Assembly (NCBI RefSeq): GCF_009828855.1 | Contig: NZ_WUAG01000001.1 | Location: forward strand, 1,302,001 to 1,366,000 | Direction: 5' to 3' | DNA from: Psychromonas sp. L1A2 | GTDB lineage: Bacteria; Pseudomonadota; Gammaproteobacteria; Enterobacterales; Psychromonadaceae | Length of the DNA: 64,000 nt | Part shown: one piece after another, positions 710-51,243 of the stretch | Layout of the letters: the number at the start of each line of letters is the position of its first letter | How positions within the stretch are numbered: the first letter of the stretch is position 1 | Program-made: the position numbers and the translations under genes | Notes under the pieces: generated by a model | Seen by the model: only the letters and a program-made list of their open reading frames with translations | The model's database searches: none | Told to the model about the DNA's origin: nothing

Positions 710-1360
710 TTAAAGCAACTTCACACCACAGCCTTTTAATACGACCTGCGTAATCAATTCTGCTCCTGTTTCAAAATCACTTTCTTCTAATTCAGTTTTG
801 CCCATCAAAATACTGCTTTGTAGACCATAGTCAGCATACGCTTGGGTTGATGACCAGATCATAAATAATAGATGTTCAGGACTGATTGGGTTCATCCATT
901 GTTTTGCTATCCATTCTCGAAATACCTGACAGGTTTTCATGAATTGATCTTTTAAGTCTGTTTGTAGCTTTTCACGTAAGAAAGGTGCGCCGTGTAGAAG
1001 CTCTGAAGCAAAGATACGAGATGCATTTGAATGATCTTTAGACTGTTTTACTTTAAGTATAATGTAGTGTCTAAGCGCTTCCCTTGGGTGTTGATCTGCA
1101 CTCATCCCTTCCATGTCCACTAACCAAATTTTTAAAATTTGAATTAAGACTTCTTTATATAGCACTTCTTTTGTTTTGAAATAATAGAGAATATTAGACT
1201 TTGGCAACTGTGCTTGTTCTGCAATAGATGAAATAGTGGTGCCATTATATCCATATTCAGCAAAGCGTTGCTCTGCGACAGACAGAATAAGCTGCAGGTT
1301 ATCTTTACGAATATCTGCTGATTTACGACGTGTGGTACTGACTTTTTTATTTTCTTTCAT
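710..1360 (-). CDS. rutR: RutR-like TetR-family pyrimidine-responsive regulator
   Basis: A 216-residue TetR-type protein. The N-terminal helix-turn-helix (about residues 25-70) ends in the ILYYFKTKE segment, close to the LLYYFPSKE of E. coli RutR as I remember it. The C-terminal half keeps RutR-like stretches such as QILKIWL and LLFMIWSSTQAYADY, the region that holds the uracil/thymine pocket. In E. coli RutR represses pyrimidine degradation and is released from DNA by uracil or thymine. The gene is transcribed away from preT, and a near-consensus RutR palindrome lies in the shared spacer, so control of the preTA operon is likely. The start is ATG with a weak AGAGA upstream. Family assignment is strong; ligand is inferred. 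Confidence 0.87.
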   Translation of the reverse strand: MKENKKVSTTRRKSADIRKDNLQLILSVAEQRFAEYGYNGTTISSIAEQAQLPKSNILYYFKTKEVLYKEVLIQILKIWLVDMEGMSADQHPREALRHYIILKVKQSKDHSNASRIFASELLHGAPFLREKLQTDLKDQFMKTCQVFREWIAKQWMNPISPEHLLFMIWSSTQAYADYGLQSSILMGKTELEESDFETGAELITQVVLKGCGVKLL

Positions 1361-1564: not shown

Positions 1565-1662
1565 TTAGTTGGCTTGCTGATTGCATTGTCTTAATTGTAA
1601 CTCAAACTTAAATTAACACTTAGACACTGGCTGATCATTAATTACCAACAGGAGAGATCATC

Positions 1663-3042
1663 GTGATGAATATGGACAATTCAGTAAATTATTCGCAGCA
1701 ACAACTGGCATTAAATCAGATGTTTAAAGATATTAACCCCGCCCTCAGTGCCCGCCAAGCCGGCATTGAAAGTTCTCGTTGTTATTATTGCTACGATGCT
1801 CCTTGCATTAAAGCTTGCCCATCTAAAATTAATATCCCTAGTTTTATCGCTAGTATACACGCAGATGACCTGACGGGTGCTGCAAAAACCATTTACAAAG
1901 AAAATATAATGGGCGGCAGTTGTGCGCGAGTTTGTCCTACTGAAATTCTTTGTGAACAGGCTTGTGTTAGAAATAAAGAAGAAGAGAAAGCCCCTGTAAG
2001 AATTGGTTTGTTGCAACGTCACGCAACTGATAATGCTGAATTTGAAGGTCATCCTTTTGAACGTGCAGCATCGACAGGCAAAAAAATAGCAGTAGTGGGT
2101 GCAGGGCCAGCAGGCTTAAGTTGTGCTCATCGTTTGTCATTATTAGGTAATGATGTTGAAGTCTTTGAAGCAGAAGATAAGGCGGGTGGTTTAAATGAAT
2201 ACGGTATTGCTAAATATAAACTGACTGAAAATTTTGCACAAAAAGAAGTCGATTTCATTTTAAGTATTGGCGGTATTACCGTGCACTATGAAACTGCATT
2301 GGGTAAAGATATTACCCTAGATAAATTAAAAGAAGATTTCGATGCTGTCTTTTTAAGTATTGGTTTACAAGACACATCATCATTGTATTTAGATAACGAA
2401 GATAATGAAATGGTGATTAACTCAGTTGATTATATTAAAGAGCTACGCCAAGCAACAGATCTTGAACAGTTAACTGTCCCTAAAGATAGTGCAGTGGTGA
2501 TTGGTGCGGGTAATACAGCGATCGATATCGCTTGTCAGTTAAAACGTTTAGGCACAGAAGAAGTGACGTTGGTTTACCGTCGTGGTGAAGAGCAAATGAG
2601 TGCGACTAAGCATGAACAACAAATTGCTAAAAATCATCAAGTAAGAATTAAAACATGGAGTCAACCAGAAAGCATTGATGTCGATGATTATGGCAAAGTC
2701 ACAGGAATGAGTTTTCGTAAAACCTATTTAGAAGATGGCAAGCTTAAAGGCGGTGATGTGCAGTTTGATATCGCTTGTAGTGCGATTTTTAAAGCAGTAG
2801 GTCAAAAAATGGCTTACCCAGATGCAGAACAATTAATTCCGACTATAAGTAACGGAAAAATTGCTACTTTTCATAATCAATTAACCAGTATCGATGGTGT
2901 TTTTGCTGGTGGAGATTGTACTGGGGTTGGACAAGACCTTACCGTTGAAGCTGTACAGCAAGGAAAATTAGCGGCAATCGCGATTAATGAGCAACTTAAT
3001 GTCTCAACTACTACACCATTACAAACAGCACTTAGCGCATAA
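1663..3042 (+). CDS. preT: NAD-dependent dihydropyrimidine dehydrogenase subunit PreT
   Basis: 459 residues, the electron-transfer flavoprotein subunit of the two-subunit enzyme that reduces uracil and thymine to the dihydropyrimidines. The N-terminal Cys-rich region (CYYCYDAPCIKACPSKINIP, then SCARVCPTEILCEQAC) binds Fe-S clusters. It is followed by an FAD motif (VVGAGPAGLSCA, about residue 140), an NAD(P) motif (VIGAGNTAIDIACQ) and the late FAD contact GVFAGGDCTG. The frame opens with GTG at 1663 followed directly by ATG at 1666; AGGAGAG at 1650-1656 serves either. It lies 14 bases before preA, so the two are one operon. The RutR-type operator upstream suggests induction by pyrimidines. Confidence 0.94.
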   Translation: MMNMDNSVNYSQQQLALNQMFKDINPALSARQAGIESSRCYYCYDAPCIKACPSKINIPSFIASIHADDLTGAAKTIYKENIMGGSCARVCPTEILCEQACVRNKEEEKAPVRIGLLQRHATDNAEFEGHPFERAASTGKKIAVVGAGPAGLSCAHRLSLLGNDVEVFEAEDKAGGLNEYGIAKYKLTENFAQKEVDFILSIGGITVHYETALGKDITLDKLKEDFDAVFLSIGLQDTSSLYLDNEDNEMVINSVDYIKELRQATDLEQLTVPKDSAVVIGAGNTAIDIACQLKRLGTEEVTLVYRRGEEQMSATKHEQQIAKNHQVRIKTWSQPESIDVDDYGKVTGMSFRKTYLEDGKLKGGDVQFDIACSAIFKAVGQKMAYPDAEQLIPTISNGKIATFHNQLTSIDGVFAGGDCTGVGQDLTVEAVQQGKLAAIAINEQLNVSTTTPLQTALSA

Positions 3043-3056
3043 AAGGGAGAAATAAC

Positions 3057-4331
3057 ATGGCTGACTTATCAATTGACTTCGTAGGTATTAAATCTCCTAA
3101 TCCATTTTGGCTAGCATCCGCGCCGCCAACAGATAAAGCGTATAACGTTGAACGTGCTTATGAAGCAGGTTGGGGTGGTGTGGTTTGGAAAACATTAGGT
3201 GAAGATCCGGCTGCGGTGAATGTTTCTTCTCGTTATTCTGCGCTTTATGATCATAACGGTGATGTCTCTGGTTTTAATAACATTGAATTAATTACCGACC
3301 GTAGTTTAGAGATTAATTTACGTGAAATTACAGAGGTTAAAAAGCGCTGGCCAGATCGCGCATTAGTGGTTTCTTTGATGATGCCTTGTGAAGAGCAAGT
3401 ATGGAAACGTATTCTTAAACTGGTTGAAGCTACGGGAGCTGACGGTGTTGAACTTAACTTTGGTTGTCCGCATGGTATGCCTGAACGTGGTATGGGTGCG
3501 GCAGTCGGACAAGTACCTGAGTATGTTGAAATGGTCACTCGATGGTGTAAACAGCACAGTAAAATGCCAGTGATTGTGAAATTAACGCCGAATATTACCG
3601 ATGTACGTCTTCCTGCTCGTGCTGCTAAAAGTGGTGGGGCTGATGCGGTTTCTCTGATCAATACAATCAATTCAATTACTGGTATCGACCTTGATGCAAT
3701 GTCTGCTCGTCCGATGGTGGATGGTAAAAGTACCCATGGTGGTTATTGTGGTCCTGCAGTGAAACCTATTGCGCTGAGTATGACAAGTGAGATTGCTCGT
3801 GACCCTGAAACTGCTGGTCTGCCAATTTCTGGTATCGGTGGTATTGGTAACTGGAAAGATGCGGCTGAGTTTATTGCATTGGGGGCGGGCTCTGTTCAAG
3901 TATGTACCGCAGCCATGATTTACGGATTTAACATTGTTCAAGAAATGAAAGAAGGTCTATCAAATTGGATGGACAGTAAAGGCTATGAAAACATCAATGA
4001 CTTTAAAGGTTTAGCGGTTCCAAATACAACTGATTGGAAAAAGTTAAACATGAATTACAAAGTCGTTGCAACTATTGATGAAGATAAATGTATTGGTTGT
4101 GGCCGTTGTTACCAAGCTTGTGAAGATACTTCACATCAAGCTATTACGGTGACGTCTAATGATGATGGCACCAACACCTTTGGCATTATTGATGATAACT
4201 GTGTGGGTTGTAATTTATGTGAGATCACTTGTCCTGTTGATGATTGCATCACTATGGATGAACGCTCTACGGGCCAACCATATATGAATTGGATGGAAGA
4301 TGTGCGTAACCCTCATAGGGAAGAAGCATAA
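3057..4331 (+). CDS. preA: NAD-dependent dihydropyrimidine dehydrogenase subunit PreA
   Basis: 424 residues, the FMN- and Fe-S-containing catalytic subunit. The first 310 residues are a dihydroorotate-dehydrogenase-like barrel: ELNFGCPHGMPERGMG holds the substrate-loop region, VIVKLTPN the FMN-binding strand, and SGIGGIGNW the phosphate site. The C-terminus has two 4Fe-4S motifs, CIGCGRCYQAC and CVGCNLCEITCP. This composition is the same as E. coli PreA (YeiA). A good RBS (GGGAG) precedes the ATG, and the gene follows preT closely. With PreT it performs step one of reductive pyrimidine catabolism. Confidence 0.95.
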   Translation: MADLSIDFVGIKSPNPFWLASAPPTDKAYNVERAYEAGWGGVVWKTLGEDPAAVNVSSRYSALYDHNGDVSGFNNIELITDRSLEINLREITEVKKRWPDRALVVSLMMPCEEQVWKRILKLVEATGADGVELNFGCPHGMPERGMGAAVGQVPEYVEMVTRWCKQHSKMPVIVKLTPNITDVRLPARAAKSGGADAVSLINTINSITGIDLDAMSARPMVDGKSTHGGYCGPAVKPIALSMTSEIARDPETAGLPISGIGGIGNWKDAAEFIALGAGSVQVCTAAMIYGFNIVQEMKEGLSNWMDSKGYENINDFKGLAVPNTTDWKKLNMNYKVVATIDEDKCIGCGRCYQACEDTSHQAITVTSNDDGTNTFGIIDDNCVGCNLCEITCPVDDCITMDERSTGQPYMNWMEDVRNPHREEA

Positions 4332-4458: not shown

Positions 4459-5796
4459 ATGAACAATGAACAGTTAAATAGTGGCATTACTCAATCCCAA
4501 CTCGATGCGCATTGGATGCCTTATACAGGCAACCGTGAATTCAAAAAAGACCCGCGTATTATTACCTCTGCGCAAGGTAAATATTATACCGATTCAAAAG
4601 GTCGACAAATATTCGATGGTTTATCTGGACTGTGGTGCTGTGGTTTAGGGCATGGTCGACCAGAGATAGCTGAAGCAGTGAGTGAACAACTAAAAACATT
4701 AGATTATTCACCAGGTTTTCAATTTGGCCACGTAAAATCATTCCAACTTGCAGAGCAAATTGCTGATTTTATGCCTAAGGGACTTAATCGCGTTTTCTAT
4801 ACCGGGTCGGGTTCTGAAGCGGCTGAAACGGCATTAAAAATGGCTCGTGGTTATTGGCGTAAAAAAGGCATGGCCAGTAAAACTAAATTAATTGGACGTG
4901 GTTTAGGTTATCACGGCAGTAATTTCGGTGGTATTTCAGTAGGTGGCATTGGTGGTAATCGTGCTTTGTTTGGTCCTGCCGTTGAAGCAGATCATCTACG
5001 CCATACACTCTTACCTGAAAATTTATTCTGTAAAGGTCAACCTAAAGCTGGAGCAGAGTTAGCCAATGAATTAATAGATCTGATTGCACTACATGACGCC
5101 TCTAATATTGCCGCAGTAATTGTTGAGCCGTTATCTGGATCGGGCGGTGTTATGCCACCTCCTATCGGTTATTTAAATCGTTTACGTGAAATATGTGATG
5201 ACAATAATATCTTACTTATTTTCGATGAAGTGATTTGTAGCTTTGGCCGCATGGGCGAAAACACGGGCGCTGAAGCTTTTGGTGTTGTGCCAGATATTAT
5301 TAACATCGCTAAACAAGTGACGAACGGCACTATTCCAATGGGCGCTGTAATTGCGAAACAAGAAATATACGATACTTATATGGACCAAGGTGGCCCAGAA
5401 TATATGGTTGAGTTTCCTCATGGCTATACTTATTCAGCTCATCCCGTGGCTTGTGCCGCTGGCATTGCAGCCTTGGATATATTGAAACAAGACAAACTAG
5501 TTGAACGTGTTAAAGCACTCAGCCCTTACTTTGAAAGTGCAGTACATAGTTTAAAAGGCTGTAAGTATGTTACTGACATTAGAAACTATGGTTTCTCTGC
5601 TGGTTTTAGCATTGAACCTTTTCCTGGTGAACCTGCATTACGTCCTTATCAAATTGCTATGAAAATGTGGGAAAAAGGATTTTATGTCCGTTATGGCGGT
5701 GCAACGATTCAATTAGGTTTGCCTTTTACCAGTGAAAAAGAAGAGATCGATTCTCTGATCAATGCACTTGGTGAAACTTTTAATGAAATAGCGTAG
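4459..5796 (+). CDS. class III omega-amino acid (beta-alanine):pyruvate aminotransferase
   Basis: 445 residues, a PLP-dependent class III transaminase. Seen are the early HWMPYTGNREF and GLSGLWCCGLGHGRPEI segments typical of omega-amino acid:pyruvate aminotransferases, YTGSGSEAAETALKMA for the PLP phosphate, IFDEVICSFGRMG with the cofactor Asp, and NIAKQVTNGTIPMGAV with the Schiff-base Lys. It would convert beta-alanine plus pyruvate to malonate semialdehyde plus alanine, step four of the pathway. RBS GAGGTGA is well placed. It follows preA by 127 bases and precedes the semialdehyde dehydrogenase by 30, so the four genes probably form one transcript. Substrate is inferred from context. Confidence 0.9.
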   Translation: MNNEQLNSGITQSQLDAHWMPYTGNREFKKDPRIITSAQGKYYTDSKGRQIFDGLSGLWCCGLGHGRPEIAEAVSEQLKTLDYSPGFQFGHVKSFQLAEQIADFMPKGLNRVFYTGSGSEAAETALKMARGYWRKKGMASKTKLIGRGLGYHGSNFGGISVGGIGGNRALFGPAVEADHLRHTLLPENLFCKGQPKAGAELANELIDLIALHDASNIAAVIVEPLSGSGGVMPPPIGYLNRLREICDDNNILLIFDEVICSFGRMGENTGAEAFGVVPDIINIAKQVTNGTIPMGAVIAKQEIYDTYMDQGGPEYMVEFPHGYTYSAHPVACAAGIAALDILKQDKLVERVKALSPYFESAVHSLKGCKYVTDIRNYGFSAGFSIEPFPGEPALRPYQIAMKMWEKGFYVRYGGATIQLGLPFTSEKEEIDSLINALGETFNEIA

Positions 5797-5838
5797 AAAA
5801 TTAAACGAGTTGGCATTAATAGCCACATGGAGATTTTT

Positions 5839-7332
5839 ATGACACAAGTAGTAGGCCACCTTATTGATGGCGAAATAGTAAATGACAATGATCAAACACA
5901 AGATGTTTTCGACCCTGCGCTAGGTGCAGTGGCAACGCAAGTTGCATTAGCTTCTAAAGAGACAGTTGAACTTGCGATTGCATCGGCACAGAAAGCCTTT
6001 CCCGAATGGCGTAATACACCGCCTTTAAAACGTGCTCGAGTGATGTTTAAATTTAAAGAGTTGTTGGAAACTAATAGAGATAAAATTTGCCACTTATTAG
6101 GCAAAGAGCATGGCAAAATTTTACATGATGCTGCAGGTGAGTTACAGCGAGGCATCGAGAATGTTGAATATGCTTGTGGAGCACCGGAGTTATTAAAAGG
6201 TGAACACAGTAAGAACGCAGGGCCAAATATTGATTCATGGAGCGAATTACAACCTTTAGGCGTGGTTGCTGGTATTACGCCTTTTAACTTTCCTGCCATG
6301 GTGCCGATGTGGATGTTCCCGTTAGCGATTGTATGTGGTAATTGCTTTATCTTAAAACCTTCAGAAAGAAACCCGAGTGCCACTTTATATATTGCACAGT
6401 TATTACATGAAGCGGGGTTACCAAAAGGCGTTTTAAATGTGGTTAATGGTGATAAAGAAACCGTTGATACATTATTAGCAGATACTCGTATTAAAGCGGT
6501 TAGCTTTGTAGGGTCAACACCTATTGCTGAACAAATTTATACTAAAGCAACGGCTAACGGTAAACGTTGCCAAGCTCTAGGTGGTGCTAAAAACCACGCC
6601 ATTATTATGCCTGATGCAGATATGGATAACGCCGCTAACCAGCTATTAGGCGCCGCATTCGGCTCATCTGGCGAACGTTGTATGGCATTGTCGGTTGTTG
6701 TTGCTGTAGGTGATAAAGCGGCAGATGACTTGATTGCAAAAATGACCGTTTCGATGAAAGAGTTAAAAGTAGGGGCATTTGATAATACTGATAATGACTT
6801 TGGTCCTTTGATTACTAAACAGCACCAAGAAAAAGTAATAGGTTACATTGATAGTGCGGAACAACAAGGTGCTGATATTGTTGTTGATGGGCGTTCGTTG
6901 AAAGTAGAAGGTTATGAAAGTGGCTATTTTGTTGGCGCCACTTTAATTGATAAAGTTGAAGCTGAAATGGATAGTTATAAAGCTGAGATATTTGGTCCGG
7001 TTTTACAAGTCATGCGTGTAAAAACGATGGAACACGCAATGCAGTTAATCAATGACCATGAATACGGTAACGGCACTTGTATTTTCACCCGTGACGGTGA
7101 GGCTGCTCGTTATTTCTCTGACAATATTGAAGTGGGTATGGTGGGGATTAATGTGCCATTACCTGTACCGGTTGCTTACCACAGTTTTGGTGGTTGGAAA
7201 CGTTCGTTATTTGGTGATTTACATGCCTATGGCCCTGATGGAGTTAAGTTTTACACTAAACGTAAAACCATCACACAACGCTGGCCATCAAGTGGTGTTA
7301 GAGAAGGTGCAAATTTCGCTTTTCCTAGCTAA
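5839..7332 (+). CDS. mmsA: CoA-acylating (methyl)malonate-semialdehyde dehydrogenase
   Basis: 497 residues from the ATG at 5839, which has GGAG six bases upstream; the ATG at 5827 overlaps that RBS and is less likely. An aldehyde-dehydrogenase fold: GVVAGITPFNFPAMVPMWMF is the MmsA signature, ILKPSERNPS the NAD-binding segment, and GSSGERCMALS carries the catalytic Cys. The C-terminal VPLPVPVAYHSFGGWK stretch also marks MmsA and not ordinary ALDHs. Such enzymes turn malonate semialdehyde into acetyl-CoA and CO2, closing uracil-to-central-metabolism flow. Its place just after the beta-alanine aminotransferase supports this over valine catabolism. Confidence 0.93.
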   Translation: MTQVVGHLIDGEIVNDNDQTQDVFDPALGAVATQVALASKETVELAIASAQKAFPEWRNTPPLKRARVMFKFKELLETNRDKICHLLGKEHGKILHDAAGELQRGIENVEYACGAPELLKGEHSKNAGPNIDSWSELQPLGVVAGITPFNFPAMVPMWMFPLAIVCGNCFILKPSERNPSATLYIAQLLHEAGLPKGVLNVVNGDKETVDTLLADTRIKAVSFVGSTPIAEQIYTKATANGKRCQALGGAKNHAIIMPDADMDNAANQLLGAAFGSSGERCMALSVVVAVGDKAADDLIAKMTVSMKELKVGAFDNTDNDFGPLITKQHQEKVIGYIDSAEQQGADIVVDGRSLKVEGYESGYFVGATLIDKVEAEMDSYKAEIFGPVLQVMRVKTMEHAMQLINDHEYGNGTCIFTRDGEAARYFSDNIEVGMVGINVPLPVPVAYHSFGGWKRSLFGDLHAYGPDGVKFYTKRKTITQRWPSSGVREGANFAFPS

Positions 7333-38663: not shown

Positions 38664-38770
38664 TTAATGTGTTATGTTTGCAGGATTTTGAATCAAAAAA
38701 TTAGAACATAAAGAAGATTTTTATTCAATCTTTAGTGGCACTATCTTTAATGTTTTTACTTGGAACTAAC

Positions 38771-39349
38771 ATGGCTGACAAACAATACCTAACTGCGCAA
38801 AACCTATTAGAAGACTCTTATGCTTTAGCTCGCAATATTCTCGATAGTGACTTTAAACCGACTTTTATTGTTGCTGTTTGGCGTGGTGGTGCTCCGATTG
38901 GTATTGCGGTGCAGGAGTTCCTAGCCGTTCATGGTATTCAATCTGACCATATTGCGATTCGAACTTCTTCTTACGCTGCTGCAATCGACCAACAACAGAA
39001 AGAAGTTAAAGTGCATGGCTTAAACTACTTGGTTAAAAACCTTCAGCACCATGATAAATTACTGTTAGTCGATGATGTCTATGATACTGGTCGTTCTATC
39101 GAAGCTATTATTAAAGAGCTGCATAGAAAAACCAGATTAAATATGCCGGAAGATGTCAGGATTGCAGTGCCTTATTATAAACCAACACGTAATCAAACCG
39201 ATCGCATACCTGATTATTATCTACACGAAACCGATGCTTGGTTGAAATATCCTCATTCATTAGAAGGGCTATCGGCAGAAGATATTGCGATAAAACGTCC
39301 TCGCTTGTATGAAATTATAAAAGACTTTTTACCTGCTAAAAGTGAATAG
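38771..39349 (+). CDS. purine-type phosphoribosyltransferase
   Basis: 192 residues from the ATG at 38771, with GGA six bases upstream; the longer frame from 38735 overlaps promoter DNA. FIVAVWRGGAPIGIAVQE and LLLVDDVYDTGRSIE (residues 97-111) give a fully canonical PRPP loop. The fold is that of hypoxanthine/xanthine phosphoribosyltransferases. It would convert a base plus PRPP to the nucleotide. It is a divergent paralogue of the gene at 38055-38663 with only about 107 bases between starts, so both probably share a control region. Confidence 0.9.
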   Translation: MADKQYLTAQNLLEDSYALARNILDSDFKPTFIVAVWRGGAPIGIAVQEFLAVHGIQSDHIAIRTSSYAAAIDQQQKEVKVHGLNYLVKNLQHHDKLLLVDDVYDTGRSIEAIIKELHRKTRLNMPEDVRIAVPYYKPTRNQTDRIPDYYLHETDAWLKYPHSLEGLSAEDIAIKRPRLYEIIKDFLPAKSE

Positions 39350-41273: not shown

Positions 41274-41967
41274 TATCGCTCAATCTTATAATAACTTTTA
41301 AAGCTCGCTTATATGTGATGGCTTGAAATTTACTCTATTTTAAAATATCTATCATTTTAATTTTAAGGTCGTTTGTTATTCGTCCTGATTTTTTAAAGGT
41401 TTATATTATTGTTTATTTAGTATGTCGCTCAGTACATCATAAATCAGGTTCTTATCCTTTCATTTATAGTCGTTTTTGTGTTTTATCGATTCCTTACCGC
41501 CTTGCATTTTAGCCTTCAAAAAGACGCTTATTATTCACTTTTAGTATTTAACAAGCTTTGATAGATTCTTGTTGATTATCAATTCGGTTATTAGTTTTCG
41601 AATTAAATTTCATTATTTTGGTAAATTAAAAGTCATTTTTTATTGTTTTTATAATAAGTTAAACAGAAGAACGGCACCAATATAGAGCATGTATTGACCT
41701 TTTGGTCAGTATTCAATCAAAGCACAGCCTTTGATTACACTTGTCCAATAAACGAAATGATATTTTAAAATAATAACAAATCCTCAAATAAGGGCATTAT
41801 TAGCACCAAAAAGGAGCGTGGAAATATTGTAAAATAAGGATGTTGGCTATTGATATTCACTGTCATTTATTAGATGGTGTAGAGAGTAAATGGATTTTTC
41901 TAATAGCAAAACACATATAAAAATTTAAAGTTACAAGACTATTTATTGAATTTAAAGGATTAGATCT
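41274..41967. other. 694-base regulatory spacer upstream of nutA
   Basis: A long AT-rich spacer with no credible gene. Its notable content is the RutR-type dyad at 41694-41709 and a 26-codon frame at 41840-41920 that I reject as a gene. The length suggests a complex control region or a long leader for the nutA-porin-nuclease genes. Confidence 0.5.
41694..41709. promoter_or_regulatory. RutR-type operator upstream of nutA
   Basis: TTGACCTTTTGGTCAG matches 12 of the 14 specified positions of the RutR palindrome TTGACCANNTGGTCAA and differs from the preT operator at only two of sixteen bases, both in or next to the unspecified centre. It lies 258 bases upstream of nutA. The shared, non-consensus final G in both sites suggests one species-specific form. 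Confidence 0.6.
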
Positions 41968-43617
41968 ATGAATAACAAACACTTCATTGTGGCAGGCATT
42001 ACGTCACTAATGTTGACCGGATGTTCAACTCTTACTTCACCTAATACAAGCCAACAAAAATGGTTACAAGATAAAGAATATACTCTAACTATTCTTCATA
42101 CCAATGATAACCACGGACACTTTTGGCAGAATCAATATGGTGAACGTGGCATGGCTGCCCGTGCAACGTTAGTTAATCATATTCGTGCAGAAGTCGAGTC
42201 TGCTGGTGGTTCTGTATTGTTACTTTCTGGTGGAGATATTAATACTGGAGTACCTGAATCTGATCTTTTAGATGCACAACCTGATTTTATTGGTATGAAT
42301 ATGATTGGTTATGATGCGATGGCTATAGGCAACCATGAATTTGATAATCCTCTTGATGTCCTAGCTAAACAAGCTGATTGGGCAAACTTTCCTTTTCTTG
42401 CCGCTAACATATACAAAGATGGCAAGCGTATGTTTGAAGCTTACAAAATCTTTGATAAAGATGGCGTTAAAGTTGCGGTTATAGGTTTAACGACAGAAGA
42501 TACAGCTAAAATTGGTAATCCAGAATTTATTAAAGACGTGCTATTTACAGATCCTAAAGTAGAGGCAAAATTAGTCATTGCTGAAGTAAAAGCCAAATAT
42601 AACCCCGATATCATTATTGCTGCTACACACATGGGGCATTATTTAAATGGTGACAACGGTTCTAACGCACCCGGTGATGTTCAATTAGCACGTTATCTTG
42701 ATGAAGGCTCTCTTGATATGATTGTGGGTGGTCATTCTCAAGAACCTGTTTGTATGGAAGGTGTTAATGAATATGCTGACTTTAAAGCAGGACAAGCTTG
42801 TAAACCGGATATTCAAAATGGCACCTATATTGTACAAGCACATGAATGGGGTAAATATGTAGGGCGTGCTGATTACACATTTAAAAATGGAGAGCTTGAA
42901 CTACAAGCTTACAACCTAATTCCAGTGAATTTGAAGAAGAAAGTACAAGATGCCAACGGTAATAAAACGCGTGTCTTTATTCAAGATGAAATCAAACAAG
43001 ATGAAGTGGTATTTAACACATTAAAACCATTTCAAGAACAAGGTCAAGCAGCTTTAAATTTTGTGATTGGACATAGTAATGGATTGTTACAAGGTGAGCG
43101 AAAAGTTGTTCGTAATAATCAAACTAACTTAGGCCGTTTGATTGCCACAGCACATATGCAACGCGCTCAAGCTGATTTTTCTGTTATGAATTCTGGCGGC
43201 ATTCGTGCTTCGATTGAAGCGGGTGATATTTCTTATAAAAGTGTTTTAACGGTACAGCCGTTTGCCAATACGATCACTTATGTCGATATGACAGGAGTTG
43301 AAGTCGTTGCTTATCTTAATCAAGTGGCAACAAAAAGCAAAGACTCAGGTGCTTATCCACAATTCTCAGGTATTACAATGACGGTTGCTGACATGCAGGT
43401 TAGCAATATTGTTATTGGTGATAAACCGATTGATTTAAATCGTACTTATCGTTTTACCGTTCCATCATTTAATGCTGCTGGTGGTGATGGTTATCCAAAG
43501 CTCTCTGAGCATCCCTCTTATGTTAATACCGGTTATGTCGATGCGGAAGTTTTAAAGGATTTTATCCAGAAAAACTCACCGATTAATATTGCTGATTTCA
43601 TCCCTAAAAATGAATAA
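41968..43617 (+). CDS. nutA: NutA/UshA-type 5'-nucleotidase lipoprotein
   Basis: 549 residues. Signal with lipobox MLTGC (Cys19), so anchored to the outer or inner membrane facing the periplasm. The metallophosphatase domain has ILHTNDNHGHFW (about 42-53), SGGDINTG (87-94), AIGNHEFDNP, ATHMGHY and IVGGHSQEP. The C-terminal nucleotide-binding domain has NSGGIRASIEAG and the FNAAGGDGYP loop with aromatic neighbours. It closely follows the Vibrio NutA sequence I recall. It removes phosphate from external nucleotides so nucleosides can enter. AAGGATT lies before the ATG. First gene of the scavenging block, with a RutR-type dyad upstream. Confidence 0.94.
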   Translation: MNNKHFIVAGITSLMLTGCSTLTSPNTSQQKWLQDKEYTLTILHTNDNHGHFWQNQYGERGMAARATLVNHIRAEVESAGGSVLLLSGGDINTGVPESDLLDAQPDFIGMNMIGYDAMAIGNHEFDNPLDVLAKQADWANFPFLAANIYKDGKRMFEAYKIFDKDGVKVAVIGLTTEDTAKIGNPEFIKDVLFTDPKVEAKLVIAEVKAKYNPDIIIAATHMGHYLNGDNGSNAPGDVQLARYLDEGSLDMIVGGHSQEPVCMEGVNEYADFKAGQACKPDIQNGTYIVQAHEWGKYVGRADYTFKNGELELQAYNLIPVNLKKKVQDANGNKTRVFIQDEIKQDEVVFNTLKPFQEQGQAALNFVIGHSNGLLQGERKVVRNNQTNLGRLIATAHMQRAQADFSVMNSGGIRASIEAGDISYKSVLTVQPFANTITYVDMTGVEVVAYLNQVATKSKDSGAYPQFSGITMTVADMQVSNIVIGDKPIDLNRTYRFTVPSFNAAGGDGYPKLSEHPSYVNTGYVDAEVLKDFIQKNSPINIADFIPKNE

Positions 43618-43815: not shown

Positions 43816-44895
43816 ATGTTAAAAAAATCAACGCTATGCATCGCATTATCAACCATTTTGGCGGGGGCTACGGCACAAGCTGCAACCCTTTATGAAAAAG
43901 AAAATGGCGATAATCTGAAAGTCTATGGTGAAGTCGGTGTCGGTGGACATATTGGTGCCGATTATGAATATGGTGAATTTTATACGGATGATAAATCATA
44001 TATCGATGACAGTTTTGCAACACTGGGCCTTAAAGGTGAATACGAGGATATTTATTACCGCCTTGAGCTTGATTATGAACGTGAAAATTGGGCATACGGT
44101 TCTGGTGACCTGGAATTGACAATAGATAAATTATTTATCGGTTATAAGTTTTACAAAAATCATGCAATTGAGGTCGGATTAACTGATACCGCTCTGGATG
44201 ATTACGATAAATTTGGTGACTTTACTTTCGATACAACGGTTGAAACTGGCGAAGCAGGCGATCAAGAAAATACGATCAAATATGAAGGTTCTTTTTCTGA
44301 TTTTAAAATGGGACTCTCTTATTCTTATGAAGGTGAAAGTTCATCTGGTTCTGAATTAGGCGACATTATTAATGGGTATGTTGGTTACTTTAGTGATTAT
44401 GTTGATGTGGTGATTGGAGCTGAAACACGCAGTGGCTCAGAAGGTATGTCGAAGTACGGAGAGCAAACACTTTTCTCCTTAGGCCTACGTGCTTACATTA
44501 CGGATGATTTCGCTATCGGTTTAAATGGTTATATTGAAAATGAAGATATTGCACAAACGAGCACGGTTATTTCTATTAGTAATGACTTTGAAGAAACAAG
44601 TTCTTATAACGATTACCAAACACTTAAAAACCAAGGAGCATTAATTTCGGCTCGTTACACTTTAAATAAAAAAGTTGAATTTACTGGGTCATTAAATTAC
44701 GAAGAATACGAGACTTGGGATATCAACAGTGCTTATGGTGTTTCACCTGATGATGAGTACTCATGGGGTAAAGAGCGAATTTGGGGGACGTTAGGTATTA
44801 ATTTCAAACCAACAAGTTCTGTTATTTTTGCATTGGAAGGTAACTTTGGTGAAGCAGCACAAGATGCTTACGCATACGCTCGAGTATATTTCTAA
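43816..44895 (+). CDS. outer-membrane porin
   Basis: 359 residues. Signal peptide 1-22 ending AQAA. The mature protein shows alternating beta-strand patterns throughout (KVYGEVGVGGHIGADYEY, YYRLELDYEREN), acidic loops, and a C-terminal ARVYF ending in Phe, the BAM recognition signal. It is a Gram-negative trimeric porin, related to marine porins. AAGGATTATAAAATG gives a clear RBS. Between nutA and the extracellular nuclease gene (46 bases to the next start), it may pass nucleosides or oligonucleotides; this role is inferred from position only. Confidence 0.87.
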   Translation: MLKKSTLCIALSTILAGATAQAATLYEKENGDNLKVYGEVGVGGHIGADYEYGEFYTDDKSYIDDSFATLGLKGEYEDIYYRLELDYERENWAYGSGDLELTIDKLFIGYKFYKNHAIEVGLTDTALDDYDKFGDFTFDTTVETGEAGDQENTIKYEGSFSDFKMGLSYSYEGESSSGSELGDIINGYVGYFSDYVDVVIGAETRSGSEGMSKYGEQTLFSLGLRAYITDDFAIGLNGYIENEDIAQTSTVISISNDFEETSSYNDYQTLKNQGALISARYTLNKKVEFTGSLNYEEYETWDINSAYGVSPDDEYSWGKERIWGTLGINFKPTSSVIFALEGNFGEAAQDAYAYARVYF

Positions 44896-44941: not shown

Positions 44942-47900
44942 ATGAATAAGAATTTAAATAAAAGTCTATTAGCATTAGTGATAAGCGGTATTTTATCGAG
45001 CCATGCTAGCGCTGCAATAACCGATATTATTATCAGTGAATATTTAGAAGGTTCGGGTGATAATAAAGCGATAGAATTAACGAATACTGGCACAAGTAAC
45101 TACACCTTTCCAAGCAATATCGAATTGCAATATAGTTCTTATAATAATCAAGTTCGTAATCCTGCTGGTGATAATGTACTTGAAGGTGTCACGATTCCTG
45201 CTAATTCAACATTAGTTATTTATAATAGTGGGTCAGATACCGCATTATCAGAAGCCATTGCAAGCAGTGCAACAAGTGTTATCGCTGCGACGTACGATGA
45301 ACAATCATTTAATAGTTTAAGTTTTAATGGTGATGATAAAGTTTCTCTTATCAATACTGATACTAATACTACCTACGATATTATCGGTATAGATGGAACT
45401 TATTGGGGCTCTGGGCAAACATTGCGTCGTAGATTTGTAGAGGGGAATTCAATACCGACTCAATCTGCAATTTACAAAGCAGCAGATTGGGAAGACTTCG
45501 GTGAAGATGTATATGATGATCTTGGAACGGCAAGTTACTCAGAATATCAAGAAGTCGTTGCTTCTACATGTTCGTTAGATACGCAAACAACAATTGCAGA
45601 AGTGCAAGGTACAGGCACATCTTCTCCATTGATCACAAGTGGCTTTACCACTGCAGAATCTTACAATATCACGGGTATTGTGACGGCTGTAACGACTTAC
45701 CCTGAAAAAGGGTTTTATATGCAAGATGTTGCGCCAGATGGAGATGAACTGACCTCTGATGGCATCTTTGTTAGCACTGCTAACGCAAGCGATGACATGA
45801 TCGGCACTACCGTTTGTGTAACGAGCACAGTAACTGAATCTTATAATTTAACGCAGCTTGAAACTGATGAGTGGGATACCGTTGATGCAACATCATCGGT
45901 ACCAGCGGCAACGGATATCGAAATGATTGCTGCCGATGGTGATTCATTTAATGCAACATTAGAACGTTATGAAGGCATGTTAGTTAATTTACCTGAAGAT
46001 ATTGATGTCAATACTAGTGGTAATCAAGACATGCGCGTCTCAAAAACATTTGGTTTTAATTACGATACATTCCGTAACGATATGAGTCTATCTTATCAAC
46101 GACCTAATTTAAATCCTACACAAGAAAATGTTCCTGGAAGTGAGGATATTTTGGCCGCCATTGCTGAAAATAATGATTATCGTTTGGTGATAGAAAGTAG
46201 TACCAAAGCAGCTGATGGAGAAATTCCTTACTATTCAACTTTCAGTTCAGATCCTGCTAATAACTACATCCGTGTTGACGATAGTGTTATTGGTATGGAG
46301 GGTGTTATTACTTATAGTTTCAGTAATTTTAACCTAGTGGTTACCAATGAGTTATATAGCAACAACTTTGTACATAATACAGATAGACGCTCATCACCAG
46401 ATTTAAGTACAACGACTGAAAATGGTCATTTCTCTATTACAGTTGGAACAAAAAATGTTTTAAACCTATTTAACTCGCCATACGGTGGAGAGACTAACTC
46501 ACATGGTGAAAACCGTGGTGCAGATGACGAAGCTGAATATCAAAAACAATTAGCTAAGTTAGTATCAGCTATTACAGGTCTTGACGCTGATATTGTAGGC
46601 TTGATGGAAATTGAGAATAATGGTTTTGGCAACGACAGTGCTATTCAAGCATTTGTTGATGCGATTAATGAAGAATATTACGATGAAGACCCTAAAGATG
46701 AAGATAGTGCGGTATCTACAAGTAACCGTTACGTTTTTGTTGGATATGACTCTAACGGTGACTTAGTACTTGATGAGTCTGATTCTTTAGGTTCAGATGC
46801 TATCACGACGGGGTTATTATATCGTCCATCTAAAGTCAGCATTGAAAGTATGAGAGTTATCTCTATGCCAGAACAGCACGCACCAGTTGTGGTGAATAGT
46901 GCTAATACGGTAATGAAAGATAGCAGTGGTGCCGTACTTGAAAGTGGTGATAACTATCAACGAGAAACAATCGCAGCTACCTTTAAAGTTAACAATACAG
47001 GCAAAACATTAACGGTTGCTGTTAACCACTTTAAATCTAAAGGTTCAACTTGTTGGGAAGAGTGGGATGGTGTTGAATTTGGTGATGAAAGCACATGGTC
47101 AGATGATGCACCTGATGAAGATTTACAAGGTGCTTGTGAAAACCTACGTGTTGCCGCAGCTGTACAGCTAGGTGAAGAGCTTGAAGGGCTAGGTGGTGAC
47201 CGTATTATTGTTGGTGACTTAAATTCTTACGGTCAAGAAGATCCTCTTTTAGTGCTAACTGAAAATACAACAGGCAAAACCATTACTACTGCTCGTGATA
47301 CGTTCATTGGTGATAAACCTCAGTTTACAGTGGCTGGTACCCCTCAAAAAATAACTAAAACCTATAGTTACATCAATACTATTACCTTAAAAGATGCAGA
47401 AAAAGGTCAATCAAGTTGGAGTTATTCTTACAATGATGAAATTGGTTCTCTTGACCATATATTAATTAGTCCTTCATTAGAAACACGCTTAATAGACGCA
47501 GTTGACTGGCACATTAATGCACCTGAATCCTCTCTATACGACTATAACACTGAATATAAAGGTGATGATTATGAGAATTTCTATGTTGATGACGAGTACC
47601 GTTCATCGGATCACGATTCAGCAATTATGTCATTAAGCTACGAATATGGAGAAGTGGGAGAAGGCGAGCCTGTTTACCTTACAATTAGCAGCAGTGCGGT
47701 CGATGTGCCTTATGTGCTTGAAGAAGGTGCTTTAATTGGTGATGTTGCACAAATTCAATTATCTTCATCAACCGATATGAGTGATGTGGTTCTACCAAAT
47801 GTGATTATTACTGAAGATAATCAGTCATTAGTTGAAATTGAAGTTTATGGTCTAGATGCAGGAACTTACACTGCAAAAATGACATTAACACGTGATGCAG

Positions 47901-48079
47901 AAGTGATGTCTGAATTTACAAAAACGATGTCATTTGAAGCGGCTTCTAAAGATTCCTCGACTGCAAATGTTGCACCTGCTGAACAGTACGATGGTTCTGG
48001 TGGTGGCTCATTCGGTATATTTGGCCTTATCTCATTATTAGGCTTGGGTTTCTTACGTCGCTTTAAAGCGCAGCTATAA
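44942..48079 (+). CDS. ExeM/NucH-type extracellular endonuclease with GlyGly-CTERM tail
   Basis: 1045 residues from the ATG at 44942 (AAGGA eight bases upstream). Signal peptide 1-25 (SHASA). Lamin-tail domain about 26-180 (ISEYLEGSGDNKAIEL). An OB-fold region about 205-330 (YNITGIVTAVTTYPEKGFYM). Endonuclease/exonuclease/phosphatase domain about 495-900: LMEIENN, NHFKSKG, VGDLNSYGQEDPL, SSDHDSAIM carry the Mg2+ and catalytic residues. C-terminal domain, then GGGSFGIFGLISLLGLGFLRR, a GlyGly-CTERM sorting tail (here split: GGGSFGIFG, LISLLGLGFLRR). It degrades extracellular DNA. Porin upstream, second nuclease downstream. Confidence 0.93.
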   Translation: MNKNLNKSLLALVISGILSSHASAAITDIIISEYLEGSGDNKAIELTNTGTSNYTFPSNIELQYSSYNNQVRNPAGDNVLEGVTIPANSTLVIYNSGSDTALSEAIASSATSVIAATYDEQSFNSLSFNGDDKVSLINTDTNTTYDIIGIDGTYWGSGQTLRRRFVEGNSIPTQSAIYKAADWEDFGEDVYDDLGTASYSEYQEVVASTCSLDTQTTIAEVQGTGTSSPLITSGFTTAESYNITGIVTAVTTYPEKGFYMQDVAPDGDELTSDGIFVSTANASDDMIGTTVCVTSTVTESYNLTQLETDEWDTVDATSSVPAATDIEMIAADGDSFNATLERYEGMLVNLPEDIDVNTSGNQDMRVSKTFGFNYDTFRNDMSLSYQRPNLNPTQENVPGSEDILAAIAENNDYRLVIESSTKAADGEIPYYSTFSSDPANNYIRVDDSVIGMEGVITYSFSNFNLVVTNELYSNNFVHNTDRRSSPDLSTTTENGHFSITVGTKNVLNLFNSPYGGETNSHGENRGADDEAEYQKQLAKLVSAITGLDADIVGLMEIENNGFGNDSAIQAFVDAINEEYYDEDPKDEDSAVSTSNRYVFVGYDSNGDLVLDESDSLGSDAITTGLLYRPSKVSIESMRVISMPEQHAPVVVNSANTVMKDSSGAVLESGDNYQRETIAATFKVNNTGKTLTVAVNHFKSKGSTCWEEWDGVEFGDESTWSDDAPDEDLQGACENLRVAAAVQLGEELEGLGGDRIIVGDLNSYGQEDPLLVLTENTTGKTITTARDTFIGDKPQFTVAGTPQKITKTYSYINTITLKDAEKGQSSWSYSYNDEIGSLDHILISPSLETRLIDAVDWHINAPESSLYDYNTEYKGDDYENFYVDDEYRSSDHDSAIMSLSYEYGEVGEGEPVYLTISSSAVDVPYVLEEGALIGDVAQIQLSSSTDMSDVVLPNVIITEDNQSLVEIEVYGLDAGTYTAKMTLTRDAEVMSEFTKTMSFEAASKDSSTANVAPAEQYDGSGGGSFGIFGLISLLGLGFLRRFKAQL

Positions 48080-48221
48080 CTAAATTCGAATCTAATCATT
48101 ATAACGATGGTACTTACATTCATTGCGCTTTTACATTAGTTTAAAATACGCTTGTTGTAAGTGCTGTTGTTTTTATGATGATTAACGATGAATGATTAAA
48201 TGGAATTTAAAGAGAGATATA

Positions 48222-50201
48222 ATGGATAATAAATTAAAAAAAACAGCACTATGTTTATTGGTGCTAGGAAGCCTTACTGCCTGTAATAGTGATGATTCAT
48301 CAACGGTTTCTAGTAACGATTATATAACCGTAGTTCAAGAAGTTGAAGAAACGGTAGAAGATCTAAGCGAAGATACTGATTCAGTAGTCACAGAAGGTAA
48401 TTTATTACTGAATAGTGATTTTGAAAGTTGGACAGATGGATTACCTGACGGTTGGACCATCATTGATGATGGGATTAGTGTTGCACAGAGTACGACTATT
48501 TACTATACAGATGAAACTTCAACTTTTGCTATTGGTGAAAATTCAGCAGCAATAACAGTGACAACTGAAACACAAGGCGATACTGATTTCCGTCAATCAA
48601 TTGATGTCGTTTCTGGTACAACCTACCTATTTAGCACATGGATATATCATACGGAAGGCATGATCAGTGCTCGATTATATGTTGATGGTTACCAAGGGTA
48701 TTCTGATGCAGATTTAGTTAATCAGTGGCAAGAGGTGACTTATAGCTACGCTGCTGATGAAGATAAAAGTATTGAAGTTGGCTTACGTTTTTATGATCAA
48801 ACTGGGTTTGATGGTGAAGAAATTGTTTACGTAGATAATTTCTCATTTTCATCTGATACGGTCGAAACAACGACTGATGAGACTGCAGAAGAAGAAATAA
48901 TAGAGGAAGAAGAAGCATCAGAAGTAGTCGCTGAAGAAGAGACAACAGATGAGACCGTCACAGAGGAATCTGATGGTAATTTGTTAGTTAATGGTGACTT
49001 TGAAAGTTGGTCTACATCTTTACCTGATGATTGGACAACTATCGACAGTGATATTAGTGTTTCACAAAATACGACTATTTATAATGAAGGTTCATCTTCT
49101 GCAGAAATATCTGTCAATAGTGGCACACAAGGTAGTACTGACCTTCGTCAATATATTGATGTTACTGAAGGAACAACTTATACCTTTTCAACGTCGGTTT
49201 ACCACACCGATGGCTTAATAAAAGCGCGTTTATACATCGGTGGTGATTATGGAACTTATTCAGATAATACTGTGTTAAGTGGGTGGCAAGAGGTGACTTA
49301 TAGTTACACTGCGACTGCTAGTGAAAGTATCGAAGCTGGAATTCGTTTTTATGATCAAACTGGTTATATTGATCCTGAAATTGTATATATTGACGGTTTC
49401 TCAGTCATTGCTGACTCGAACTCTAGTTCAGATACGAGTACTTACTATGCAAGTGCTGCTGATTTAACGGGCCTTGAATTAAAAACAGCACTGTATAATA
49501 TTATTAAAGACCATACGACGAAAACCTATAGTAACTTATGGGACTTTATGAGCACCAATTCATTAGATGTTTACTATGAAAATGATGGCACTATTTTAGA
49601 TATGTACTCTGAAAACCCATCAAGCTCAGATACTTATAACTATACACCTGTTACAGATCAGTGTGGTAATTACTCTGGTGAAGGTAGCTGTTATAACCGT
49701 GAACACTCTTTCCCGAAAAGTTGGTTTGATGACCAATACCCAATGTACACAGATATCCACCACCTTTTTGCAACGGATGGTTATGTGAACGGTAAACGTA
49801 GTAATTACCCTTATGGTGTTGTTGGTACAAGTACATTTGTATCAGACAATGGCAGTAAAGTTGGCTCTGCAAGTAGTGATTTAGGTTACTCTGGTACCGT
49901 ATTTGAGCCGATTGATGAGTTTAAAGGTGATTTTGCTCGTGCTTATTTCTACATGGCAACACGTTATGAAGATATCATTTCGACATGGGAAGTTAACTCT
50001 GATTCTGCAGATGCTGTGTTAGATAGTAGTTCTGATTATGTGTTTGAGGAATGGGTTATTACTATGCTGAAAACCTGGAACGAGAATGATCCTGTGAGTC
50101 AAAAAGAGTTAGATCGTAATGAAGCGGCTTATGAGTTCCAAGGAAATCGTAATCCATTTATTGACCACCCTGAATATGTTAATGAAATTTGGGCTGATTA
50201 A
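48222..50201 (+). CDS. surface lipoprotein nuclease: two binding modules plus endonuclease I domain
   Basis: 659 residues from the ATG at 48222. Lipobox LTAC (Cys21). Residues 60-212 and 253-396 are two copies of a CBM-like beta-sandwich (NLLLNSDFESW / NLLVNGDFESW, GWQEVTYSYTA, RFYDQTG) joined by a Glu/Thr-rich linker. Residues about 408-659 are an EndA/NucM-type endonuclease I domain with NREHSFPKSWF and DIHHLFATDGYVNGKRSNYP, the His-Me finger core. The modules might hold the enzyme on DNA, matrix or cell surface. It follows the ExeM-like gene by 142 bases. A nuclease call is firm; module ligand unknown. Confidence 0.9.
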   Translation: MDNKLKKTALCLLVLGSLTACNSDDSSTVSSNDYITVVQEVEETVEDLSEDTDSVVTEGNLLLNSDFESWTDGLPDGWTIIDDGISVAQSTTIYYTDETSTFAIGENSAAITVTTETQGDTDFRQSIDVVSGTTYLFSTWIYHTEGMISARLYVDGYQGYSDADLVNQWQEVTYSYAADEDKSIEVGLRFYDQTGFDGEEIVYVDNFSFSSDTVETTTDETAEEEIIEEEEASEVVAEEETTDETVTEESDGNLLVNGDFESWSTSLPDDWTTIDSDISVSQNTTIYNEGSSSAEISVNSGTQGSTDLRQYIDVTEGTTYTFSTSVYHTDGLIKARLYIGGDYGTYSDNTVLSGWQEVTYSYTATASESIEAGIRFYDQTGYIDPEIVYIDGFSVIADSNSSSDTSTYYASAADLTGLELKTALYNIIKDHTTKTYSNLWDFMSTNSLDVYYENDGTILDMYSENPSSSDTYNYTPVTDQCGNYSGEGSCYNREHSFPKSWFDDQYPMYTDIHHLFATDGYVNGKRSNYPYGVVGTSTFVSDNGSKVGSASSDLGYSGTVFEPIDEFKGDFARAYFYMATRYEDIISTWEVNSDSADAVLDSSSDYVFEEWVITMLKTWNENDPVSQKELDRNEAAYEFQGNRNPFIDHPEYVNEIWAD

Positions 50202-50335: not shown

Positions 50336-51169
50336 ATGAAGAACCTTTCTAAAAGCCTTTTAGGTCTTGCAATGGTGGTTGCACTTAGCTCAACATCTTT
50401 TGCATCTGAGAAACAATTTACAACTAAAGACTTAAATCAAGAGTCAGTATTAGCGCTTTCATGGGTACAAAATTCAGCTGAATTTACAGCGCTTTCTTAC
50501 CAAGCATTTAACCTTGCTAAATTAAGATGGGATATGGATAAGCAAGAAGGCAAAAAAGCGATTGTTGTTGATGTTGATGAAACTATCATTGATAACAGCC
50601 CATACAACGGTGGTTTAATTGATAAAGACTATGGTTATAGTGGTGATACGTGGAAAGCGTGGAGTGAAGATAAAAGTGCAACAGCAATGCCTGGCGCTGT
50701 GGATTTTTTGAATTATGTCGTTGAAACAGGTGGTGATGTTTTTTATGTTACTAACAGAAAATCGATGCCTGAAAAAAATATGGACCTGAAACAATCAACG
50801 ATGGAAAACTTAAAAGCATTAGGTTTTCCACAGGTTGACGAGAAGCATATGATGCTTAGAACAGGCACATCAAAAAAACAAGAACGACGTGATAGTGTGA
50901 CAGGAATGGGCTATAAAATTGTGTTGTTAATGGGCGATAACCTAGCGGATTTCGATGCTGCTTTTGATGGCGATACAATGGAAGGTAGAAGTAAAGCTGT
51001 TGAAACTCATAAAATGAGTTTTGGTGATAAGTTCATTGTATTACCTAATCCAATTTATGGTGCATGGGAAGCGGCTGTTTATGGTGGTGGAAAATGGTAC
51101 AAAAAGTCTCCACAAGAAAAGTCAGCGCTTAGGAAGAGTACATTAAGAAAGTTTGAGTTTGAAAAATAA
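50336..51169 (+). CDS. e(P4)-family acid phosphatase / 5'-nucleotidase
   Basis: 277 residues. Signal peptide 1-23 (SSTSFAS) with no lipobox Cys, unlike Haemophilus e(P4), so soluble periplasmic or secreted. Class C acid phosphatase (HAD): motif I VVDVDETIIDN (D79, D81), FYVTNRK, and LLMGDNLADFDAAF for motif IV. The family removes 5'-phosphates from nucleotides, NMN and nicotinamide nucleotides. It would finish digestion of the 5'-mononucleotides made by the two nucleases. GGAG precedes the ATG; a strong terminator follows. Last gene of the block. Confidence 0.92.
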   Translation: MKNLSKSLLGLAMVVALSSTSFASEKQFTTKDLNQESVLALSWVQNSAEFTALSYQAFNLAKLRWDMDKQEGKKAIVVDVDETIIDNSPYNGGLIDKDYGYSGDTWKAWSEDKSATAMPGAVDFLNYVVETGGDVFYVTNRKSMPEKNMDLKQSTMENLKALGFPQVDEKHMMLRTGTSKKQERRDSVTGMGYKIVLLMGDNLADFDAAFDGDTMEGRSKAVETHKMSFGDKFIVLPNPIYGAWEAAVYGGGKWYKKSPQEKSALRKSTLRKFEFEK

Positions 51170-51208: not shown

Positions 51209-51243
51209 GCAAAAAGCCTAATGTAAAATATTAGGCTTTTTGC
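51209..51243. terminator. bidirectional terminator after the e(P4) gene
   Basis: GCAAAAAGCCTAAT (51209-51222) and ATTAGGCTTTTTGC (51230-51243) form a perfect 14-bp stem with a seven-base loop, ending the scavenging operon. Confidence 0.95.

Follow-up and report, generated by a model that had tools for sequence, protein, structure and literature searches.

A probable RutR-type operator before nutA in Psychromonas sp. L1A2 suggests joint control of nucleic-acid scavenging and nucleobase catabolism

The dyad at 41694-41709, upstream of nutA in Psychromonas sp. L1A2, is probably a true operator of a RutR-type TetR repressor, part of a regulon that would reach from extracellular scavenging to nucleobase catabolism. 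The predicted regulon also includes purine catabolism: xdh, urate genes and BMP/ABC uptake. DNA is an important source of phosphorus, nitrogen and carbon in the sea, and to our knowledge the signal that switches on its scavenging by bacteria is poorly known. In E. coli, RutR is a TetR repressor that is released by uracil. We analysed a 64-kb window of a 2.49-Mb contig. The genome (4.34 Mb) consists of two contigs, C1 and C2, and coordinates given here with no contig name are those of the window.

Results

The preliminary description had placed near-identical dyads before preT and nutA. Both are there: TTGACCCTGTGGTCAG at 1549-1564 before preT and TTGACCTTTTGGTCAG at 41694-41709 before nutA agree at 14 of 16 bases. 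It had seen no third full dyad in the window, and an exact search of the window for TGACCNNNNGGTCA indeed gave those two alone; exact TTGACCNNNNGGTCAG likewise occurs in the 4.34-Mb genome at the preT and nutA sites only. With one mismatch allowed, TGACCNNNNGGTCA is also found in the window at 18079-18092 and 42014-42027, both within open reading frames (ORFs). The copy at 42013-42028, TTGACCGGATGTTCAA, lies within the lipobox codons of nutA, one mismatch from the symmetric dyad, as it does in SP041 and 2B2-76; it may reflect coding constraint or be an auxiliary site.

The dyads in the genome are these:

1549-1564, + strand: dyad before preT; exact TTGACCNNNNGGTCAG
41694-41709, + strand: dyad before nutA; exact TTGACCNNNNGGTCAG
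C1:81945: dyad before a second 5'-nucleotidase gene; one mismatch; gene family by Pfam
C1:968097: dyad before a second ExeM nuclease gene (exeM2); one mismatch; gene family by Pfam
C2:1298632: dyad TTGACCATTTGGTCAA between xdhA and the gene for a BMP-type binding protein
C2:1285127: dyad between urate-pathway genes and an ABC transporter; at most one mismatch

The symmetric form TTGACCATTTGGTCAA (TTGACC-N4-GGTCAA) has one genomic copy, the xdh dyad at C2:1298632 on the second contig, and the exeM2 and urate/ABC sites each have two mismatches to it. The exeM2 site was compared with that of the near relative G009 alone, and the urate/ABC site in its own genome alone. A weaker site, CTGTCCTGTTGGTCAG (two mismatches), is found 0.7 kb beyond the window, flanked by a dihydropyrimidinase-like gene and an M20-type gene that extends into the start of the window; the G021 homologs of these flanking genes belong to the Amidohydro_1 and Peptidase_M20 families.

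The dyad signal is one of location and conservation, not of number. A genome-wide tally of loose matches, to which the preliminary description had looked for evidence, proved uninformative: at two or fewer mismatches the oriented matches to TTGACCNNNNGGTCAG number 58+62, fewer than the 86+94 of the reversed control. At one mismatch or fewer the figures are 12 oriented matches against seven. The 12 fall at 11 places, five within ORFs of unrelated genes and six intergenic, and all six intergenic sites precede nucleic-acid genes. The reversed pattern has seven places, every one in an ORF (intergenic share 6/11 versus 0/7, Fisher p 0.04). Two runs of a Markov estimate gave no match in 6 Mb, so that the chance rate is only bounded. 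Genes called prepilin peptidase, mraZ, tkt and preT of relatives, and the xdhA fragments, were read by eye with no family search, as were the second Tsx-type and permease loci (L271, L274).

The nutA dyad sits 274 bp 5' of the nutA ATG, among the following features:

41674..41688, + strand: conserved element GCACCAATATAGAGC (island GCACCAATANAGAGC), just upstream of the nutA dyad; a weak NtrC-like dyad
41803..41817, + strand: second conserved element, of GCACCAAAA type, about 90 bp downstream of the nutA dyad
41968..43617, + strand: nutA, 5'-nucleotidase/UshA-family lipoprotein (NF007109, 874 bits, cut-off 600; PF02872, PF00149)
43816..44895, + strand: outer-membrane-like protein (no Pfam match; weak YgjJ match below cut-off)
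44942..48079, + strand: ExeM/NucH-family extracellular nuclease (NF033681 over cut-off; LTD and Exo_endo_phos; ATG at 44942)
48192..50201, + strand: Endonuclease I with carbohydrate-binding domain (PF04231, E 9.6e-99; PF02018)
50336..51169, + strand: acid phosphatase/5'-nucleotidase, lipoprotein e(P4) family (TIGR01533 over cut-off; PF03767)
51209..51243, + strand: terminator-like hairpin, 16 pairs then a T run, after the last gene of the nutA cluster

The cluster is plausibly one transcription unit; the hairpin at 51209..51243 is its longest, and weaker hairpins lie inside it. The porin label once given to 43816..44895 was not confirmed by the profile searches; the product has homologs of 70-81% identity within the nut clusters of relatives. 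A search of the 420 bp preceding nutA in this genome found no sigma-54 promoter at two or fewer mismatches. GCACCAA-type islands at 41674-41688 and 41803-41817 flank the dyad and are kept in five RutR-positive species. As NtrC sites these two places are weak: each has two mismatches to what we take to be the NtrC motif, and the relatives scanned mostly have three.

The preT locus, at the start of the window, comprises:

710..1360, - strand: rutR1, RutR-like TetR regulator (TetR_N and TetR_C_3; PF08362, E 2.3e-44)
1570..1585, + strand: sigma-54-like GG-N10-GC element, a candidate promoter, directly 3' of the preT dyad
1663..3042, + strand: preT, NAD(P)-binding oxidoreductase subunit of dihydropyrimidine dehydrogenase, named from its place before preA
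3057..4331, + strand: preA, dihydropyrimidine dehydrogenase subunit (NF006183, 708 bits, cut-off 335)
4459..5796, + strand: omega-aminotransferase (AptA-type), candidate beta-alanine aminotransferase (NF052567 over cut-off)
5827..7332, + strand: methylmalonate-semialdehyde dehydrogenase type (TIGR01722 over cut-off)

The RutR-like gene said to lie beside the first site is thus the TetR_C_3 gene at 710-1360 on the minus strand. Its product scores 151.3 bits against PF08362 (cut-off 25), which places it in the RutR-like TetR_C_3 family. The NCBIfam RutR models TIGR03613 and NF011584 are its best matches, yet its scores stay under their cut-offs (183.1 bits against 368, and 171.2 against 230), and we therefore call it RutR-like, not RutR. 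An E. coli-type Rut pathway was not found beside it; the neighbours of rutR1 are preTA, the aminotransferase and the semialdehyde dehydrogenase, not rutABCDEFG. The preT product matches GltD-like profiles, none of those listed over cut-off. The sigma-54-like element, two mismatches from what we take to be the sigma-54 consensus, abuts the preT dyad and suggests extra nitrogen control. Directly upstream of rutR1, at 1382-1411, is an inverted repeat, TGTCGCA...TGCGACA, whose arms co-vary among relatives (ATATTGCA...TGCAATAT in G017).

Besides RutR1 in the window, the genome encodes one further TetR_C_3 protein, RutR2, at C2:1300503. The two are 66% identical, and the gene for RutR2 adjoins the BMP gene that flanks the xdh dyad. 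PMC10891134 gives the uracil-contacting residues of E. coli RutR as W77, Y97, W167, Q171 and Q179. All five are identical in RutR1 and RutR2 in 8/8 genomes, the recognition helices of the two proteins are similar, and either could read the dyads. With two paralogs, intact uracil pockets and similar recognition helices, the earlier claim that one regulator links scavenging to pyrimidine breakdown is unproven as to a single regulator. The link itself gains from the conserved nutA dyad and from the sites at the second 5'-nucleotidase and second ExeM genes.

RutR2, which lies near xdh, might regulate nutA in place of RutR1, so that nutA would belong to a purine-side regulon. We regard this variant, which is compatible with a RutR-type operator, as possible but less likely than not. 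The likeness of the recognition helices would allow it, as would the fact that the xdh dyad is the genome's one exact symmetric TTGACC-N4-GGTCAA; the nutA dyad, however, has the unequal ends of the preT dyad (T...G), not the symmetric xdh form. RutR1 and RutR2 occur together in all eight RutR-positive genomes, and co-occurrence therefore cannot tell them apart. A third RutR-like protein, more distant at 39-40% identity and with E replacing Q179, is encoded at G014:C89:49657 and G021:C39:160772; the G021 gene adjoins one resembling an FAD-dependent oxidoreductase gene.

Both paralogs are present in 8 of 24 Psychromonas genomes, and searches of the other 16 for RutR-like proteins gave no match better than E 6.6e-7. 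In the eight RutR-positive genomes exact TTGACCNNNNGGTCAR occurs at 18 places, 16 of them intergenic, before preT (3), nutA (5) and xdh (8); the remaining two are within a prepilin-peptidase-like gene. The 16 RutR-less genomes have it at six places, five in ORFs and one intergenic, none before nucleic-acid genes (Fisher p 2e-4 for location, which is not a strict probability as the genomes are related). In RutR-positive genomes oriented matches outnumber those of the reversed control by 24 to 6; in RutR-less genomes the figures are 8 to 10. The preT dyad is found at two or fewer mismatches in all eight RutR-positive Psychromonas.

The nutA dyad is conserved together with the regulator. Where the nutA ortholog is at least 76% identical, the dyad lies at -272 to -276 in all five RutR-positive genomes (G000, G009, G023, G014 and G021), as the preliminary description would predict of relatives, and no copy at two or fewer mismatches occurs in 700 bp in the four RutR-less genomes (G006, G001, G004 and G018, the last 85% complete). 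The RutR-positive and RutR-less nutA clades are few and the nutA tree fits one change or more, so that 5:0 against 0:4 may be one evolutionary event. In SP041 the dyad reads CTGACCTTTTGGTCAA, its unequal ends swapped.

Might the nutA dyad be functionless, conserved through the shared ancestry of the five RutR-positive species and nothing else? The independent lineages are few and loose-match counts show no enrichment, as this reading would have it. We nevertheless judge it unlikely. The DNA upstream of nutA in these genomes has diverged save for short islands, and the flanks differ between the two RutR-positive subclades, but the dyad itself keeps 13 of its 16 columns unchanged and ranks with the best conserved windows of 16 columns across both. 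Moreover, exact sites precede the same gene classes in RutR-positive genomes only. It is similarly improbable that a different repressor sharing the TTGACC-N4-GGTCAA motif binds the dyad: the candidate search covered RutR-type proteins only, but exact sites before base-metabolism genes track the presence of RutR across the 24 genomes, and both paralogs are encoded close to a dyad, RutR1 next to that of preT and RutR2 near or next to that of xdh.

Other nucleotidase genes give a mixed picture. The second nucleotidase has a two-mismatch dyad in G000, G009 and G023, and a 5'-nucleotidase-C-domain lipoprotein gene has a dyad upstream in G014 and G021. No dyad at two or fewer mismatches precedes four 5'-nucleotidase genes of another subgroup in the RutR-positive genomes G014, G016, G017 and G021. 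Outside Psychromonas, no nutA dyad was found at one mismatch or fewer in 600 bp upstream at the non-Psychromonas loci among L057-L080; the best match there, at L075, has two mismatches, and locus L074, which begins at its match, stands outside the comparison.

A scan of G014 and G021 with exact TTGACYNNNNGGTCAR gave five places in each genome, four of the five intergenic in each: before preT, nutA, xdh and the 5'-nucleotidase-C-domain lipoprotein gene. One-mismatch counts again fall below the reversed control (23+26 against 39+46 in G014; 20+17 against 33+36 in G021). Among the intergenic one-mismatch sites are a further nutA dyad in both genomes and a further preT dyad in G014, together with the dihydropyrimidinase-like/M20 region (G021) and a site at the gene of a DUF5020 protein below the Pfam cut-off (G014). 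Others have no clear link to bases: mraZ (both genomes, by eye), tkt (G014) and two more in G021.

Beyond the genus, a search of 394 genomes of the order found RutR1 orthologs at 65-68% identity in seven genomes of one other family, probably Shewanella. In six of these, exact YTGACCNNNNGGTCAR occurs at 14 places, all intergenic, a count barely above the reversed control (11 forward). The sites precede preT (5), a divergent phosphoribosyltransferase pair (3), a Tsx-type channel (2), a xanthine/uracil permease and BMP protein (2), a metallophosphoesterase (1) and a chemoreceptor-like HAMP/Cache protein (1); one gene of each kind, preT excepted, was checked against Pfam. The window has its own divergent phosphoribosyltransferase pair near nutA:

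38055-39349: divergent phosphoribosyltransferase pair, orthologous to the sister-family pair (60% and 73% identical)

A RutR dyad before this pair, sought on the example of the sister family, was not found in the window. The pair has the dyad in three sister-family genomes and lacks it here, which indicates that targets turn over.

A different dyad stands before nutA where RutR is missing. At one mismatch or fewer, AACAACANATTTTGTTAA lies at -180 to -234 in each of the four species that have a close nutA but no RutR (P. antarctica, P. marina, P. hadalis and GLG-1; upstream regions L052, L053, L054 and L059), and at nutA in the RutR-positive genomes it was found in none of five at four or fewer mismatches in 500 bp. 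Across six genomes, four RutR-less and two RutR-positive, AACAACANATTTTGTTAA occurs at 21 places (L282-L302) against two for the reversed control, 19 of them intergenic by ORF calls. It precedes nutA (4), transaldolase (3), add (2, after deoA) and a calcineurin-type phosphoesterase (1), lies between cdd and tkt (1), at the 3' side of cdd (1) and, in the G018 nut cluster, between exeM and an endonuclease-like gene (1), and is also found before chemoreceptor-like and further genes. The window's own genome retains it before add and transaldolase. This distribution suggests that AACAACANATTTTGTTAA at the nutA of RutR-less species is the site of a nucleoside-type repressor, possibly CytR-like. Since nutA has the RutR dyad where RutR is present and AACAACANATTTTGTTAA where it is not, one control has apparently been exchanged for another, in either direction. 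In G014, TTGACCATTGGGTCGA lies about 70 bp before a transketolase-like gene (L198, G014:C18:4273), and in G001 the other dyad, as AACAACATATTTTGTTAA, precedes a gene of that type; operators may thus have been exchanged here a second time.

Discussion

How might such a regulon work? The nucleases (ExeM and Endonuclease I) and 5'-nucleotidases would turn DNA and nucleotides into nucleosides, and the BMP/ABC systems would import bases or nucleosides. PreTA would degrade the pyrimidines, and xanthine dehydrogenase with the urate enzymes the purines. From the sites and the conserved pocket we infer that apo-RutR (RutR1, RutR2 or both) occupies the dyads and represses transcription until uracil or thymine from scavenged nucleic acid fills the pocket and releases it. 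If uracil or thymine does release RutR, the products of DNA digestion would induce further digestion and catabolism.

We propose, more tentatively than the operator itself and with slightly less than even confidence, a nucleobase-gated 'nucleic-acid diet' regulon of RutR-bearing Psychromonas, in which, at the DNA-digesting unit (nutA, outer-membrane-like protein, exeM, endonuclease I and phosphatase), a nucleoside-type AACAACANATTTTGTTAA site has been swapped for a base-sensing RutR-type site shared with pyrimidine and purine catabolism, and free pyrimidine bases signal feeding on environmental DNA. If this is true, scavenging would be signalled by free pyrimidine bases via a RutR-type repressor, which would couple nucleases outside the cell to base catabolism inside it. 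The matching replacement of the operator in RutR-less sisters would, if true, be a clean case of re-wiring at one promoter. The predicted target set and the apparent operator replacement would be new; the kind of regulator and regulon is known.

CytR-type nucleoside regulons may be the nearest parallel to the set of AACAACANATTTTGTTAA sites, which in this genus precede add, transaldolase and the nutA of RutR-less species and also lie between cdd and tkt; they are unlike the present regulon in that AACAACANATTTTGTTAA is absent at nutA in RutR-positive species. ExeM and EndA of Shewanella oneidensis belong to the same nuclease families and serve the use of DNA as a nutrient (PMC6085458); the part of that paper examined does not mention nucleotide-linked transcriptional control.

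The preliminary description knew of no described regulon with such reach. Described RutR regulons are already broad: PMC5343134 gives 743 target genes in 68 genomes, and the RegPrecise RutR regulogs average more than 10 target genes per genome. These regulogs, from Proteobacteria, are likewise comparative-genomic and likewise have taxon-specific motif changes (PMC5343134). Nucleases and nucleotidases are not named in the part of that paper examined. No link to nucleases appeared among the literature matches listed, to which extent the claim was checked. We found no paper joining RutR with an extracellular nuclease, none on a link between RutR and nucleotidases as judged by title and the start of the abstract, and, among the matches listed in a broader search, no title on a link between RutR and scavenging.

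The E. coli RutR regulon (rutABCDEFG, carAB) has in common with the predicted one a TetR_C_3 regulator, a 16-bp palindromic site and a conserved uracil pocket. In addition, the E. coli rutA/rutR region appears in the RpoN promoter tables of PMC8743547, an entry that resembles the preT dyad abutting a sigma-54-like element. The two systems differ in that the PreTA pathway takes the place of RutA-G here and two paralogs are present. E. coli RutR, moreover, forms a separate deep branch in a 26-row tree with midpoint root. Finally, the predicted targets here include nucleases, nucleotidases, and purine uptake and catabolism.
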